From Candidatus Kerfeldbacteria bacterium (GTDB lineage Bacteria; Patescibacteriota; Patescibacteriia; UBA9570), in the NCBI GenBank assembly GCA_016182495.1, contig JACPGK010000009.1:1-50489 (forward strand): DNA of 50,489 nucleotides, read 5' to 3'. The notes under the pieces were generated by a model, which worked only from the letters and a program-made list of their open reading frames with translations, was not told where the DNA came from and did not search any database. How positions within the stretch are numbered: the stretch's first letter is position 1; each line of letters begins with the position of its first letter. The position numbers and the translations under genes were made by a program. Below are positions 26,902-32,808 of the stretch, piece after piece.

Positions 26902-27624
26902 TTATTTGGTCTTTTCTACTACACTAGCCACGATACTTTCCCACTGTTCTACACTATGAACACCCAACACCAGCTGACCATTCACAAAGTAGGTAGGAGT
27001 AGCCGTTACTCCGCCTAATATGCCTTCATCGCGATCTTGCTGAATTTCGGCTAAATAGCGTTGCGATTCATAGCAGGCTGTGAAATCAGTCACATTAAGG
27101 CCTAGTTGGTTAGCCCAGGTACGGTAAATACCTGGCAGAGCTAATTTACTCTGTTCACTAAAAATTAAATCATGGTATTCCCAAAATTTATCTTGTTCGT
27201 TAGCACAATTAGCTGCTAAGGCAGCGTTGATAGCCTGGGGGTGTACTGAATCAAGTGGAAAATCACGATACACAAAAGCTACATCGGTTGGATGATTTTG
27301 CAATAACTGTATCATAATCGGAGCAGCTAATTCACAGTACGGACATTGAAAATCTTCAAACGATATAATTTGTACAGCAGCCTTAGGATTACCCCGAATA
27401 GGATCATCATCCCTACTGGGCACAAAGCCCGACACAACATTAGTAAGATTGGTCGCTGAATTAACCGTACTAGTATTAGCGAATTGTGAAATTTCACCCC
27501 GCTGAATTTTTTGATACTCCTGCAGTACTAACCAAATAAATAAAACGACCACAGCTACTATACAAACAATCACTACTAATCCTACCACTACCCAAAACCG
27601 TTTATACCACGGTTGATCATTCAT
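26902..27624 (-). CDS. Membrane-anchored DsbA-family thiol oxidoreductase (copy 2)
   Basis: The protein (about 240 aa) has an N-terminal anchor (residues about 10-35), a linker, then a thioredoxin-fold domain with CPYC in FEDFQCPYCELAAP at about residue 95, the helical insertion and the cis-Pro loop GVTATPTYFVNGQLV. The SIDPIRGNPKA-like region before the fold is typical of DsbA/NhaA-type membrane thioredoxins in CPR. I place the start at the ATG at 27624; the alternative is a TTG nine bases upstream. It overlaps the stop of the M56 peptidase gene and so belongs to the blaI-blaR1-like operon. Confidence 0.9.
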   Translation of the reverse strand: MNDQPWYKRFWVVVGLVVIVCIVAVVVLFIWLVLQEYQKIQRGEISQFANTSTVNSATNLTNVVSGFVPSRDDDPIRGNPKAAVQIISFEDFQCPYCELAAPIMIQLLQNHPTDVAFVYRDFPLDSVHPQAINAALAANCANEQDKFWEYHDLIFSEQSKLALPGIYRTWANQLGLNVTDFTACYESQRYLAEIQQDRDEGILGGVTATPTYFVNGQLVLGVHSVEQWESIVASVVEKTK

Positions 27625-28564
27625 ACAGTACAATGGTCATGTTCACAGGTATCGGTTGCGACATAATCGCCTGACAAATCGGCTGTTCCATTAAACACAG
27701 TTGCAAGGCGGGTGATGATTCCTGCTTGGCCAGCACCCGACCAGTGGTTAATAATACTACCATCACACTAGCGGCCATCAGTATCAGCCAGCGTAACCGT
27801 GGGCGAGCGGCTGATCGGCCGAGTAAACGATCGAGTCGAACATTCAGGCTAGAAAAAAAAGTGGCGGCAACTTTAGGTTGAGTGGCCGTACCAGATAATA
27901 ATTTCATTAATACTTGCCGCAGCTGATGATCGTCATTCATATCAGCATCAGCCGCCAATTCACGCATACCCATGAGATATTCCACCACTGCCCGGCTGAA
28001 CGGTAAGGCCGCTTGTACCAGGCTAAGACCAAAACGTTGTAATGGATCAGCATGGTGGGCGTGACTTAATTCGTGTCGCAACACGGCCCACAGTTCCAGG
28101 CCAGATAACGTAGCTTCTAAACCGGTACTAATATACACCTGCGGTTGCCATAAACCAATAGTAACCGCTACTGGTTCAACTTGATCTACTCGATGAACAA
28201 CTACTCCCTGACAAACCGTAGTTGAAATAGTATGCTGTTGTAACACATTATGTAAACGAGCAGTATTACGTATTATGGTGATGGCTGCATACCCTATGCG
28301 ACTGATTAACACTACTACTAACGTCACTCCGGCACCAATACTTAAGGCGATCCAGGGGGATTGCACAAATTCAACATACGAACTACAGCCACACGTAGCC
28401 ACCACTGTACCACTGAACTGCTGCCACCAAATAATTACCTGCGGCCAAAATTGATACCAGGCTACAGCTGCACTGATGATCAAACCACTGATGATCAACA
28501 CGAGCGTAATCAATGTGAACCAATACTGTCGACGTAAACTAGTAGCATTATTTAGCGCGTTCAT
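27617..28564 (-). CDS. M56-family membrane metallopeptidase, BlaR1-like without sensor domain
   Basis: The protein has several membrane helices (about residues 16-40, 58-85 and 225-245) and a zinc-peptidase motif HELSHAHHADPL at about residue 170, with a downstream Glu-containing helix (MRELAADAD). BlaR1/MecR1 proteins share this M56 domain but carry an extracellular penicillin-binding sensor at the C-terminus. Here only about 35 residues follow the last helix, with two Cys (LCLMEQPICQ) that could form a redox-sensitive pair. It is encoded next to a BlaI-type repressor (17-nt overlap) and should cleave or inactivate it on signal. Confidence 0.88.
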   Translation of the reverse strand: MNALNNATSLRRQYWFTLITLVLIISGLIISAAVAWYQFWPQVIIWWQQFSGTVVATCGCSSYVEFVQSPWIALSIGAGVTLVVVLISRIGYAAITIIRNTARLHNVLQQHTISTTVCQGVVVHRVDQVEPVAVTIGLWQPQVYISTGLEATLSGLELWAVLRHELSHAHHADPLQRFGLSLVQAALPFSRAVVEYLMGMRELAADADMNDDHQLRQVLMKLLSGTATQPKVAATFFSSLNVRLDRLLGRSAARPRLRWLILMAASVMVVLLTTGRVLAKQESSPALQLCLMEQPICQAIMSQPIPVNMTIVLYE

Positions 28565-28928
28565 CAATTTGACGCTTCAACTCTTTAAGTTTGCTGCCAT
28601 CAATCTCATCCAGCGCGTCCACAAATTGAGCAATAGCTAAATCGCCGTATTGACGCAACAGATTACCCAGCATAGTGCGCGATACAGTGGCATTAAATTG
28701 TTGTTCATTACGAGTAGCTTGATACAGGTAGGCTTTTTGTATTTTACGACGTTGCAGTATACCTTTTTTAGTTAGCCGTTCCATGGTGGTCATAACAGTA
28801 GTATAGGCAATAGCTCGCCGCTTATTCAATTCAGTGCATACACAACGTACATTCACTCGCTCGTAGCGCCACACAATATCCATAACGGTTTGCTCTAATT
28901 CTCCTAATGGTTTAGTAACAGAGGCCAT
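28548..28928 (-). CDS. BlaI/MecI/CopY-family transcriptional repressor
   Basis: The 126-aa winged-helix protein has LGELEQTVMDIVW, the recognition part RRAIAYTTVMTTMERLTKKGILQR, and a dimerisation tail, as in BlaI. The family binds TAC-containing dyads and is removed by BlaR1-type proteolysis. A 17-bp dyad overlaps its own -10 box. Two Cys lie together in the helix-turn-helix region (VRCVCTELNKR), an unusual CxC that might make DNA binding redox or metal sensitive. The next genes encode the M56 peptidase and a DsbA-like protein. Confidence 0.92.
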   Translation of the reverse strand: MASVTKPLGELEQTVMDIVWRYERVNVRCVCTELNKRRAIAYTTVMTTMERLTKKGILQRRKIQKAYLYQATRNEQQFNATVSRTMLGNLLRQYGDLAIAQFVDALDEIDGSKLKELKRQIDERAK

Positions 28929-28930
28929 AC

Positions 28931-28949
28931 TACTATCTAGTGTAGTATA
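28931..28949 (-). promoter_or_regulatory. blaI promoter with 17-bp BlaI-type operator
   Basis: On the plus strand TACTAT-CTAGT-GTAGTA (28931-28947) is a dyad with a 5-nt spacer and one mismatch. The minus-strand -10 TATACT (28944-28949) overlaps its right half. The dyad geometry relative to the -10 is identical at 29944-29962. An overlapping perfect dyad ATACTAC-N8-GTAGTAT spans 28927-28948. Confidence 0.7.
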
Positions 28950-28958
28950 AAGCTTTGG

Positions 28959-29798
28959 CTATGACAAGAGTTCACCAGCCGCTTGATAGGCTTGGGTGAG
29001 CACGTCGTGTCGTATACCAGTACGCTTGAATAGTTGTGTTAATGGCTGCTTCACAAATTGATCAATCACAATAATCTGCTGTTTGATGAGTAATTGTTTT
29101 TCTTGAACGGTGAGCATTGGCAACACTGTAATAGGGTATAAGCGCTGTTCTTCCAGCAGATGATTTAAACCTTCCCCCGCCGGAAAGTGCCAGGCCAACA
29201 AGCGCATCTGAACACATTGGGCATATTGAATAGCATCACTGGTAACTTTGGTATTCGTAATCACCCATGGTTGATAGTGTTGATCGGACAATTGATGGCG
29301 TTGCTGCCAAACAGCGCTAACATCTAAAAAACGAGCATACACATACAGAGCCACTTTGACATCTGTTTTAGCACCAATAAATTGATGATGCTTACACTCA
29401 ACCAAATAATGCTGATTTTTCTTTTGAGCAATAATATCAACTTCATGAGTAACACATTTTCCCGGCACTTGTTGATTGGTGCGCACCTGATAATTAAACC
29501 GTTCTAACACCTGGGCAACAAACTGCTCAAATGGATAGCCCGATGGCCCCAATTCCATAATGGCTCGTTTTAAATTATACCGAGCCGCGGCAGCCAGTTG
29601 ATTACGTTGCAGTAACAATTGGGCAGTCTTCACGTGTAAATGATTAGTCGAAGCTAAACTAGCATCATCAGCGGCTACCATTTCGGCTACTTCTTCTGCC
29701 AGGCTATGTTCTACACCAGCCGAACGCACGGATTGATACAGTTTGGTTTGATTAAACGGTTCAGAGGCGCCAGAGCCTTTTTGAATATGTTTGACCAT
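28959..29798 (-). CDS. ATP-cone / Mrr-like restriction endonuclease fusion
   Basis: Residues 1-85 form an ATP-cone (VKHIQKGSGASEPFNQTKLYQSVRSAGV…), the nucleotide-sensing module known from ribonucleotide reductase and NrdR. After a linker, residues about 95-200 are a PD-(D/E)xK nuclease: HEVDIIAQ supplies the Asp and YLVECKHH the ExK. A helical C-terminus follows. The fusion occurs in many bacteria, but its function is not established; a nucleotide-gated nuclease in DNA defence or repair is a fair guess. The ATG at 29798 is preferred because TGT-TATAAT lies exactly 6 nt before it. Confidence 0.82.
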   Translation of the reverse strand: MVKHIQKGSGASEPFNQTKLYQSVRSAGVEHSLAEEVAEMVAADDASLASTNHLHVKTAQLLLQRNQLAAAARYNLKRAIMELGPSGYPFEQFVAQVLERFNYQVRTNQQVPGKCVTHEVDIIAQKKNQHYLVECKHHQFIGAKTDVKVALYVYARFLDVSAVWQQRHQLSDQHYQPWVITNTKVTSDAIQYAQCVQMRLLAWHFPAGEGLNHLLEEQRLYPITVLPMLTVQEKQLLIKQQIIVIDQFVKQPLTQLFKRTGIRHDVLTQAYQAAGELLS

Positions 29799-29804
29799 AT
29801 ACAA

Positions 29805-29814: not shown

Positions 29815-29854
29815 AAAAACGTAGGAAACGGTCGCGACTGTTTCCTACGTTTTT
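29815..29854 (-). terminator. Terminator of the 18-aa peptide gene
   Basis: A perfect 15-bp stem (29815-29829 with 29840-29854) encloses a 10-nt loop that contains GTCGCGAC. It ends in TTTTT on the minus strand and would work on either strand. It begins 13 nt after the 18-aa stop. Confidence 0.9.
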
Positions 29855-29867
29855 GTTTATGTTATAT

Positions 29868-29924
29868 TTAACAAGCGCATTGACCGCCACAATCGCAGCC
29901 ATCGCCACTTTTGAATGTATACAT
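29868..29924 (-). CDS. 18-aa Cys-rich peptide (CDCGGQCAC)
   Basis: An ATG at 29924 and TAA at 29868 enclose MYTFKSGDGCDCGGQCAC. Four Cys in CxCGGxCxC spacing at the C-terminus resemble a minimal metallothionein or metal-cluster site. Although tiny, it has its own promoter (TATACT, 29957-29962), a BlaI-type operator overlapping that promoter, and a strong terminator 13 nt after the stop, so a dedicated short transcript is very likely. The leader before the ATG (ATAATTAATATTGATTCT) nearly matches that of the 56-aa Cys-rich gene (ATAATTAATATCTCATTCT). Confidence 0.65.
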   Translation of the reverse strand: MYTFKSGDGCDCGGQCAC

Positions 29925-29943
29925 AGAATCAATATTAATTATT

Positions 29944-29962
29944 TACTACAGCTAGTAGTATA
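29944..29962 (-). promoter_or_regulatory. BlaI-type operator and -10 of the 18-aa gene
   Basis: TACTAC-AGCTA-GTAGTA (29944-29960) is a perfect 6-bp dyad with a 5-nt spacer. The minus-strand -10 TATACT (29957-29962) overlaps its right half with the same 2-bp offset as in the blaI promoter. It begins 19 bp upstream of the 18-aa ATG and 2 bp before the mauE stop. Confidence 0.72.
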
Positions 29963-30445
29963 TCAATGCTTCAACCACTTGTCAAACGACCAAAGATTGT
30001 GTTGAGTGATAATAAGAATACTGGTCAAAGCCAATAGAACAAGATCACGCCAAAGCAACTCCGGAAAAGTTTCGCCAAAAGAAAAACTTGAACCGAAACA
30101 ACCACATTCATCTAGGGTGCGACCACGACTCATATTAATAACAATACCAATAATAAACGATAACAATAATCCAGCAATACCGCCAGCCGCCAGCCGCCGC
30201 CATAATCCTACAATTACCAGTAAGCCAAACACCACCTCGGCCCATGGCACAATGGTAACGTACCAGGTAAGCCAGGGATCAGCTATAATATTCCATTGTC
30301 GAGCAATGCCAATAAACTCTTCAATTGGTTGAGTGAGTTTAGCCAGGCCAGCCAATACAAAAATACCGCCAACTAAACCTCGGCTGATAATAACTACCCA
30401 ATGATTATTCCAAATATTTTTGAATGGCCGTTCGGAGATTATCAT
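29963..30445 (-). CDS. MauE/DoxX-like membrane protein
   Basis: The 160-aa protein has four membrane helices and the MauE pattern: an N-terminal helix with FVLAGLAKLTQPIEEFIGIA, a central WAEVVFGLLVIVGLW, then the extracytoplasmic-face motif DECGCFGSSFSFGET and a last helix. MauE proteins assist disulfide formation in methylamine dehydrogenase, and relatives are regular partners of thioredoxin-like proteins. It overlaps the DsbA-like gene by 41 nt. It probably keeps that DsbA oxidised, a DsbB-like role, as no DsbB or VKOR is present in the window. Confidence 0.85.
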   Translation of the reverse strand: MIISERPFKNIWNNHWVVIISRGLVGGIFVLAGLAKLTQPIEEFIGIARQWNIIADPWLTWYVTIVPWAEVVFGLLVIVGLWRRLAAGGIAGLLLSFIIGIVINMSRGRTLDECGCFGSSFSFGETFPELLWRDLVLLALTSILIITQHNLWSFDKWLKH

Positions 30446-31031
30446 AACTACCTACTCCAACATAACGTTCATCGTTAATAAACAAGGTAGGAGTTGATGA
30501 CACTTTGGCATCTTTACCTTCAACCACATCTTCTTGTACAGCAGCGCGTTGTTCATGATTAGTGATACACGATTCAAATTGAGTGGTATCAAGAGCCAGT
30601 TGTTCAGCATAGATCACAAAGGTAGCAGTAGGATCACGTTCAATGCTCCAAATATCTTGCTGCTCGAATAACACATCATGGTATTGCCAAAATCTATCTT
30701 GCTGCCAAGCACATTGAGCGGCTTCGGCCGCAGCAAAACCATTGGGATGAATTTGTGTTAAAGGATAATCGTTGTATTGTAATTGAATGCTATCGCCAAA
30801 TTCATCAGCGGCGCGCTCCAATAACACTACCATTTGTTCACAAGCCGGGCATTGAAAATCGCTGTATTCTTTAATGGTTACTACCGGCGTGGTACCGCCC
30901 CGAATTGGATCGGGCGTAGTGCCGGGTTGTACCCCAGCTGGTAGCAAAAACTGTTGCATCAGAAAGATAGCCACAACAATTCCAAGTACAATGCCTCCAC
31001 CCACCACGATTTTTTTGGTAGTAGGGTTCAT
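30405..31031 (-). CDS. Membrane-anchored DsbA-family thiol oxidoreductase (copy 3)
   Basis: The 208-aa protein has an N-terminal anchor (residues about 8-28), then GGTTPVVTIKEYSDFQCPACEQMVV with the CPAC active site at about residue 60, the helical insertion, and the cis-Pro loop VSSTPTLFINDERYVG. It is translationally coupled to fba upstream (ATGA) and overlaps mauE downstream. The DPIRGGTTP segment before the fold matches DPIRGNPKA of copy 2, so the two are close paralogues. Confidence 0.9.
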   Translation of the reverse strand: MNPTTKKIVVGGGIVLGIVVAIFLMQQFLLPAGVQPGTTPDPIRGGTTPVVTIKEYSDFQCPACEQMVVLLERAADEFGDSIQLQYNDYPLTQIHPNGFAAAEAAQCAWQQDRFWQYHDVLFEQQDIWSIERDPTATFVIYAEQLALDTTQFESCITNHEQRAAVQEDVVEGKDAKVSSTPTLFINDERYVGVGSYDNLRTAIQKYLE

Positions 31032-32005: not shown

Positions 32006-32022
32006 TACTACCGGCAATAGTA
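32006..32022 (-). promoter_or_regulatory. BlaI-type operator upstream of fba-dsbA-mauE
   Basis: TACTAC-CGGCA-ATAGTA has the same half-sites, 5-nt spacer and single mismatch as the blaI operator. It covers the place where the -35 of the fba promoter would be (about 32012-32017). Confidence 0.6.
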
Positions 32023-32144: not shown

Positions 32145-32384
32145 ATGATTTTTCAAACAACACTTACCCAAAAAGGTCAAATTACTATTCCAAAAGGTAT
32201 TCGTGACATTTTAAAACTATCCCCGTTCGCTAAAGTTCGCATTCGCTTGGCTAACGATCAAAAAACTGCTCTGATTGAACCAGCGGAAGATTTTATCAAC
32301 CTGGCTCAACAAGTAACAGTAAAGAAAAAACATAACCCAATAAAAGCTCGTGAACTGCTGGAGCGCCGCTATGAAAGAATTTAG
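32145..32384 (+). CDS. AbrB/SpoVT-type antitoxin (VapB-like)
   Basis: The 79-aa protein has a swapped-hairpin AbrB domain: TTLTQKGQITIPKGIRDILKL, then VRIRLANDQKTALIEP. The C-terminal tail of about 30 residues (LAQQVTVKKKHNPIKARELL) would wrap around the toxin. It overlaps the PIN toxin gene by 14 nt. The two form a type II toxin-antitoxin pair, with the antitoxin binding the repeats just upstream. Confidence 0.88.
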   Translation: MIFQTTLTQKGQITIPKGIRDILKLSPFAKVRIRLANDQKTALIEPAEDFINLAQQVTVKKKHNPIKARELLERRYERI

Positions 32385-32808
32385 CGTTTTTATTGACACT
32401 AATATTTTTTTACGTGTCTATACACGCGATCAAGAAAAAAAAGCCAAAGAATGTGAAACTGTACTGCGCGCTATTCAGCAAGGCAAAATTATTGCGGTAA
32501 CAGCCGAGATTGTATTGGCGGAATTTATTTGGACTTCGTTAAGTTATTATGATATTCAAAAAGAATCTGTCATTGCTATGGTAAAAGCAATTGTGGCGTT
32601 ACCTAATCTGCATGTTCAAGGAGTATCTGATATGCTCACCGCCATTGAATTCTACGAACAGCACTCAATTAAATTCATTGATGCCATTATTGCCTCGTGC
32701 GAGTTAGTGCGAGTGGGCACTTTACCAATGTTATCATACGATGCTGATTTTGATAAAATTGGCATCAAACGCTACGAACCAGCTGATTTGCTTAAACGCA
32801 TTGGATAG
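32371..32808 (+). CDS. vapC: PIN-domain ribonuclease toxin (VapC-like)
   Basis: The 145-aa PIN protein has catalytic acids in SVFIDTNIFLRVY, an internal Glu in EIVLAEFIW, an Asp in KFIDAIIASCEL and the final LSYDADFDKIG. VapC toxins cleave tRNA or rRNA in a Mg-dependent way. I start at the ATG at 32371, which overlaps the antitoxin stop; an upstream GTG would add seven unlikely residues. It ends 2 bp from the convergent ahcY stop. Confidence 0.88.
   Translation: MKEFSVFIDTNIFLRVYTRDQEKKAKECETVLRAIQQGKIIAVTAEIVLAEFIWTSLSYYDIQKESVIAMVKAIVALPNLHVQGVSDMLTAIEFYEQHSIKFIDAIIASCELVRVGTLPMLSYDADFDKIGIKRYEPADLLKRIG

Follow-up and report, generated by a model that had tools for sequence, protein, structure and literature searches.

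Bacterial metallothioneins such as SmtA, of 56 amino acids (PMC12292863), and MymT, of 4.9 kDa (PMC7558416), are short and Cys-rich, carry CxC pairs and are associated with a metal-type regulator. CxC motifs are also present at the C-terminus of CopY-family repressors, with one Cu per CxC (PMC7253601). In Synechocystis, the BlaI/BlaR-type pair PetR/PetP, consisting of a BlaI-like repressor and an adjacent BlaR-like M56 protease that act on copper-protein genes, is an established copper switch (PMC7896320), and the BlaI/BlaR1 beta-lactam system likewise pairs a repressor with an M56 protease and has a palindromic operator over the promoter. Small Cys-containing ORFs have in turn been linked to copper as copper-sensing uORFs, as for CruR (PMC9426467).

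The locus considered here lies in a 50,489-nucleotide stretch of DNA from a Candidatus Kerfeldbacteria bacterium (contig JACPGK010000009.1), analysed over its whole length and referred to as the window. It is predicted to encode a peptide of 18 amino acids with 4 Cys that resembles the metallothioneins in the above respects, at a fraction of the size of SmtA and MymT. Judged by sequence comparison, the peptide gene is real and conserved, with a frame that is conserved and an operator that is shared.

The peptide gene and its transcription unit

The peptide, MYTFKSGDGCDCGGQCAC, is encoded on the minus strand (29868..29924, with the ATG at 29924 and a TAA at 29870-29868), and its C-terminal end reads CxCx3CxC, that is, two CxC pairs. 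The tail of CopY also holds two CxC pairs, in the arrangement CxCx4CxC; here, however, the pairs are on a free peptide, and the local repressor has no C-terminal CxC. With Cys at 4 of its 18 residues, the peptide has the composition of a metallothionein (short, high in Cys, with CxC/CxxC), and in related peptides of sister genera the Cys content is 4/15 and 2/10-11.

Upstream, an extended -10 promoter (TTGACA-17-TATACT, with TG before the -10; 29957..29985, minus strand) lies within the 3' end of mauE and is the joint best among 24 promoter-like sites scanned in 5.8 kb. An operator palindrome, TACTACTAGCTGTAGTA (TACTAC-N5-GTAGTA; 29944..29960, minus strand), starts within the -10 box and extends over it; the chance expectation for an operator match at 3 mismatches is 0.09 per window. 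Downstream, a terminator-like hairpin with a perfect 15-bp stem starts 13 nucleotides past the stop codon (29815..29854, minus strand; arms 29854-29840 and 29829-29815). The hairpin ends in U5, but these residues are part of the stem, and a further U run is absent 3' of the stem on the minus strand. The ATG, peptide, stop codon, promoter, operator and hairpin were thus each found where the original prediction had placed them. Its further claim, that the transcript would carry nothing else, holds for the window, where there is one peptide, but not for the sister genera, where each unit has two mini-ORFs.

The peptide ORF lacks a Shine-Dalgarno sequence, an absence that is uninformative because only 5 of the 45 long ATG ORFs of the window have such a sequence. 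In several of these 45 ORFs, a TATAAT-like box is found 6-12 nucleotides 5' of the ATG which, together with the small number of Shine-Dalgarno sequences, suggests that leaderless mRNAs are frequent in this lineage. An Rfam search of the window returned zero matches.

Conservation of the locus in sister genera

Short ATG-initiated ORFs with at least 4 Cys at a density of at least 20% number 5 in the window, against 1.55 per Markov shuffle. Because Cys-rich mini-ORFs are not rare by chance, conservation has to decide, and the significance of the peptide ORF is, on comparison with its relatives, that position, frame and residues are kept in two other genera. The order of the locus in all three genera is operator, promoter, tiny Cys ORF or ORFs, hairpin, Mrr/ATP-cone gene and blaI-M56. 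In the sister genus represented by genome G001, the interval from mauE to the Mrr/ATP-cone gene likewise contains a promoter and the palindrome TACTACATTGCGTAGTA, followed by a mini-frame ending in YVGGEGGCCEGGECAC, then by MVLGGDGCAC, and then by a hairpin. The first of these mini-ORFs has no in-frame ATG, pointing to an ATT start, a frameshift or a sequence error. In the third genus (G003), the order after the palindrome TACTACGCAGTGTAGTA is MRNIGGEGCCGNCAC, MKTQGGEGCAC, a hairpin, the Mrr gene and blaI. The promoter architecture of both is that of the window, but with a 16-bp spacer. The mauE gene of G003 sits elsewhere in the genome, and the conserved unit is therefore peptide-Mrr-blaI-M56-dsbA.

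Both mini-ORFs in each sister genus end in GG[DE]G(G)C...CAC-stop, and G[DE]G(G)C...CAC-stop is common to five peptides from the three genera. Within the shared core codons of these five peptides, all 7 of the 7 variable sites are at third positions (p ~2e-5, or p = 0.012 when limited to the three codons that were unused by the search that found G003), although aligning the frames on the motif makes both p-values optimistic. The peptide tail is the same in the three genera, whereas the terminator sequences are unrelated and the predicted RNA folds differ; the original prediction would have been undermined by relatives that kept the hairpin and lost the frame or the Cys codons, and the reverse was found.

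Beyond these genera, a first search with a strict Cys motif in 57 relatives, in which the spacing was set too strictly, matched only in the window. In 380 genomes of the class, mini-ORFs with the pattern GG[DE]G...CAC-stop are confined to this locus, in three genomes of the family. Four scattered matches elsewhere were set aside, three with a spacing of non-whole codons and the fourth in an apparently unrelated frame. One out-of-family match, in G233 (L068), seems to sit inside another gene in an unrelated frame. A reversed control motif likewise matches here and there in other genomes, such that four is about the number expected by chance. Scanning ~85,000 species for an operator together with CxC-stop yielded 23 stretches; those of the two sister genomes alone appear genuine, the remainder being short wrong-frame or coincidental matches. 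The peptide motif was not found in the order-level relatives G004-G009, and the BlaI-M56 pair is present in G004 and G006. A gene for an NRAMP-like metal transporter (L036 8335-10742; named by eye) comes after that of the M56 protease in G006. In G002, matches to the peptide, Mrr and mauE are absent, but a contig end truncates blaI there, which makes an assembly gap the probable reason. On present data, the peptide gene is lineage-restricted by sequence, its family being seen in three genomes only.

The repressor, the M56 protease and the operator family

Approximately 1 kb from the peptide gene lies blaI (28548..28928, minus strand), whose product matches Penicillinase_R (PF03965, E 2.2e-25) with 89.7 bits against a cut-off of 22.6, placing it in the BlaI/CopY family. 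Its best NCBIfam model, CopY_TcrY (TIGR02698), gives 48.5 bits against a cut-off of 121.95, and the repressor, also lacking the C-terminal CxC, is not a CopY/TcrY equivalog. An operator, TACTACACTAGATAGTA (28931..28947, minus strand), precedes blaI, an arrangement suggestive of autoregulation. The proximity of this gene, and the presence of a like operator before blaI in three genera, support the BlaI-type control that had been proposed for the peptide.

Overlapping blaI is a gene for a BlaR1-like M56/M48 membrane protease (27617..28567, minus strand), which scores above the Pfam cut-off for M48 and below it for M56 (E 6e-5). Residues H165, E166 and H169 (HExxH) and E203 are invariant in 6 genomes, and the HExxH motif, the downstream Glu, the membrane helices and the position adjoining blaI are those of a BlaR1/PetP-type M56 protease. 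A CGC motif between the first two predicted TM helices is invariant in 6/6 M56 partners, and a C-terminal Cys is conserved in the six genomes; by analogy to BlaR1-like topology, both would face outward. This CGC loop distinguishes the protease (316 amino acids) from BlaR1, as does the fact that a penicillin-binding sensor domain was not found in it. The operator also differs from that of BlaI/BlaR1, being TACTAC-N5-GTAGTA and not TACA-NN-TGTA, and no beta-lactamase was seen among the operator targets. The resemblance to PetR/PetP is one of logic, with different targets, here copper export, thiol repair and a Cys peptide.

The surrounding genes on the minus strand include a DsbA-like thiol oxidoreductase 3' of the protease (26902..27633), a MauE/DoxX membrane protein 5' of the peptide gene (29963..30445) and a further DsbA-like protein (30405..31031). 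Between the peptide gene and blaI, in all three genera, is a gene with an Mrr-type nuclease domain and a weak ATP-cone match (28959..29804). On the plus strand, an AbrB-like small protein and a PIN-like protein (window 32145-32808; named by eye) form a probable VapBC-type toxin-antitoxin pair.

Operators were examined site by site, and the consensus of the family is TACTAYnnnnnRTAGTA. A third operator in the window, TACTATTGCCGGTAGTA (32006..32022, minus strand), is 5' of the fba-dsbA-mauE operon, and an operator is also found 5' of fba in G001. Further sites precede membrane DsbA with trxB or ccdA (G000, which is the genome of the window, G001 and G003), htrA (G000, G001 and G002), an ABC-2 ATPase (G000 and G001) and ArsR-ccdA-tlpA and, in G001, a cupredoxin-like protein (named by eye) and a thioredoxin lipoprotein. 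Small Cys-containing membrane proteins are preceded by operators in G000, G001, G002 and G003, and are linked to copper operons in the first three; in G002 the site is at the ortholog of the copper operon's small membrane gene, and in G001 and G003 at related genes. The operator-headed copper operon of G000 encodes an HMA-DsbD-cupredoxin protein, a CopZ-like HMA protein and a Cu P-type ATPase (CopA), which is above the TIGR01511 cut-off and has a CPC motif. The regulon predicted from these sites covers both copper export and envelope thiol repair.

Operator matches in G001 number 18 in the forward orientation as against 4 for the reversed control. In G003 and G002, the count is not in excess of the reversed control, and the evidence there is thus the sharing of sites between orthologues rather than counts. 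An operator was not found at the copA locus of G003, and two operator-like sites were discounted, one in G000 (C21) at the end of a gene and the other (C30) within a predicted protein.

The operator-controlled membrane DsbA of G000 (L110 1956-2828, minus strand), which adjoins trxB, has a Cys-rich N-terminal tag, FCAGCSCEAGQCSCGACS, containing CxCx4CxC; similar membrane DsbA proteins of G001, G002 and G003 are without this tag. Fructose-bisphosphate aldolase is preceded by an operator in two genera, and in G001 an operator is also found near a 6-phosphogluconate dehydrogenase-like gene (window 32006-32022; L113 1423; L112 1380), and rpiB, rpe and transketolase genes are near blaI-M56-dsbA, which together hint at a link to NADPH supply.

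A candidate copper or thiol buffer and its alternatives

Because the repressor's other predicted targets are copper-export and thiol-repair genes, the gene product probably serves to bind copper (or to buffer thiols) and would be unusually small for a genetically encoded peptide of this kind. A copper-inducible mini-metallothionein explains the observations most economically, and on balance the evidence tilts towards one that binds Cu(I) and is de-repressed once the M56 protease has responded to copper or thiol stress by inactivating the BlaI/CopY-like repressor. From the arrangement of the locus we infer metal binding, Cu(I) as ligand and inducer, translation, repression and proteolysis of the repressor. 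The repressor, bound to the palindrome over the -10, would keep the peptide promoter off until copper, or thiol damage provoked by copper, is sensed by the M56 protease through the CGC motif and C-terminal Cys, both predicted to be outside the cytoplasm. The protease would then inactivate the repressor, allowing the strong promoter to fire and a transcript of ~135 nucleotides to make MYTFKSGDGCDCGGQCAC, whose two CxC pairs may bind Cu(I) in the cytoplasm as a buffer until copper is exported by CopA, itself part of the same putative operator set. The metal-binding function first proposed for the peptide is supported, at the level of sequence, by the conserved Cys codons and by the operator held in common with copper-export genes. 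However, copper may be one inducer among several, since the regulon holds fba and many thiol-redox genes (DsbA, TrxB, CcdA, HtrA).

These DsbA, TrxB and HtrA members are also what makes a thiol buffer the main rival, possible if rather doubtful, in which ribosomes make the peptide as a low-molecular-weight thiol that acts as redox buffer or Trx/Dsb substrate under disulfide stress, and in which the copper genes are only part of a thiol-stress regulon. The operators at DsbA with TrxB or CcdA, the thioredoxin lipoprotein, ArsR-ccdA-tlpA, htrA and fba-dsbA-mauE would fit such a role, the second mini-peptide has only a single CAC pair, and the CGC of the sensor loop could be a disulfide switch. 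Yet an operon dedicated to copper export and a cupredoxin-like gene have the same operator, and two CxC pairs exceed the need of a buffer thiol.

It is unlikely that the ORF is instead a Cys-rich leader peptide or uORF regulating the downstream gene by ribosome stalling or attenuation, in the manner of CruR or a Cys attenuator. Copper-sensing uORFs do exist, the short ORF ends in Cys codons followed by a hairpin, and in G001 and G003 small predicted hairpins cover each of the four mini-ORF stop codons (L015 1190-1340, minus strand; L024 1560-1690, plus strand). In contrast to CruR, however, the ORF apparently forms a terminated unit of its own rather than the head of a copper operon: the terminator-like hairpin separates it from the next gene, which is Mrr/ATP-cone and no copper gene, and which has an apparent promoter of its own, with a -10 (TATAAT in the window) close 5' of its start codon in three genera. 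In addition, an antiterminator is absent from the predicted fold in G000, and GG[DE]G is conserved at the amino-acid level.

Lower still in probability is a small regulatory RNA of ~135 nucleotides with an incidental ORF, to which the discrete promoter-terminator unit, the stable hairpins and the missing Shine-Dalgarno would be suited; core changes at codon third positions only, and a peptide tail that outlasts differing terminators and folds, argue against it. A similar argument weighs against the original alternative of a regulatory RNA with a coding part, in that the amino-acid sequence is conserved and that of the hairpin is not. A RiPP precursor or secreted signal is very improbable, since the variable leader and conserved C-terminal core that recall one are accompanied by no modification enzyme, exporter or peptidase among the neighbours in three genera. 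That the ORF arose by chance and has no function, as Cys-rich mini-ORFs can, is the least credible explanation, given that its frame, residues, position and regulation are conserved across the three genera.

If the mini-metallothionein reading is correct, the locus would encode a conserved and functional metal- or thiol-binding peptide, far smaller than SmtA and MymT and short enough for gene callers to miss, in the Patescibacteria, a phylum about whose stress biology hardly anything is known. The computed regulon, which includes copper export, disulfide repair and an envelope protease, would together with the CGC sensor protease make both the peptide and the sensing directly testable. More tentatively, a lineage of ultra-small bacteria may use ribosomal peptides of 10-18 residues ending in Cys as its cytoplasmic copper and thiol buffer, some genera encoding two types on one transcript, with an outward M56 sensor based on CGC, and such peptides could possibly replace thiols of the glutathione type.
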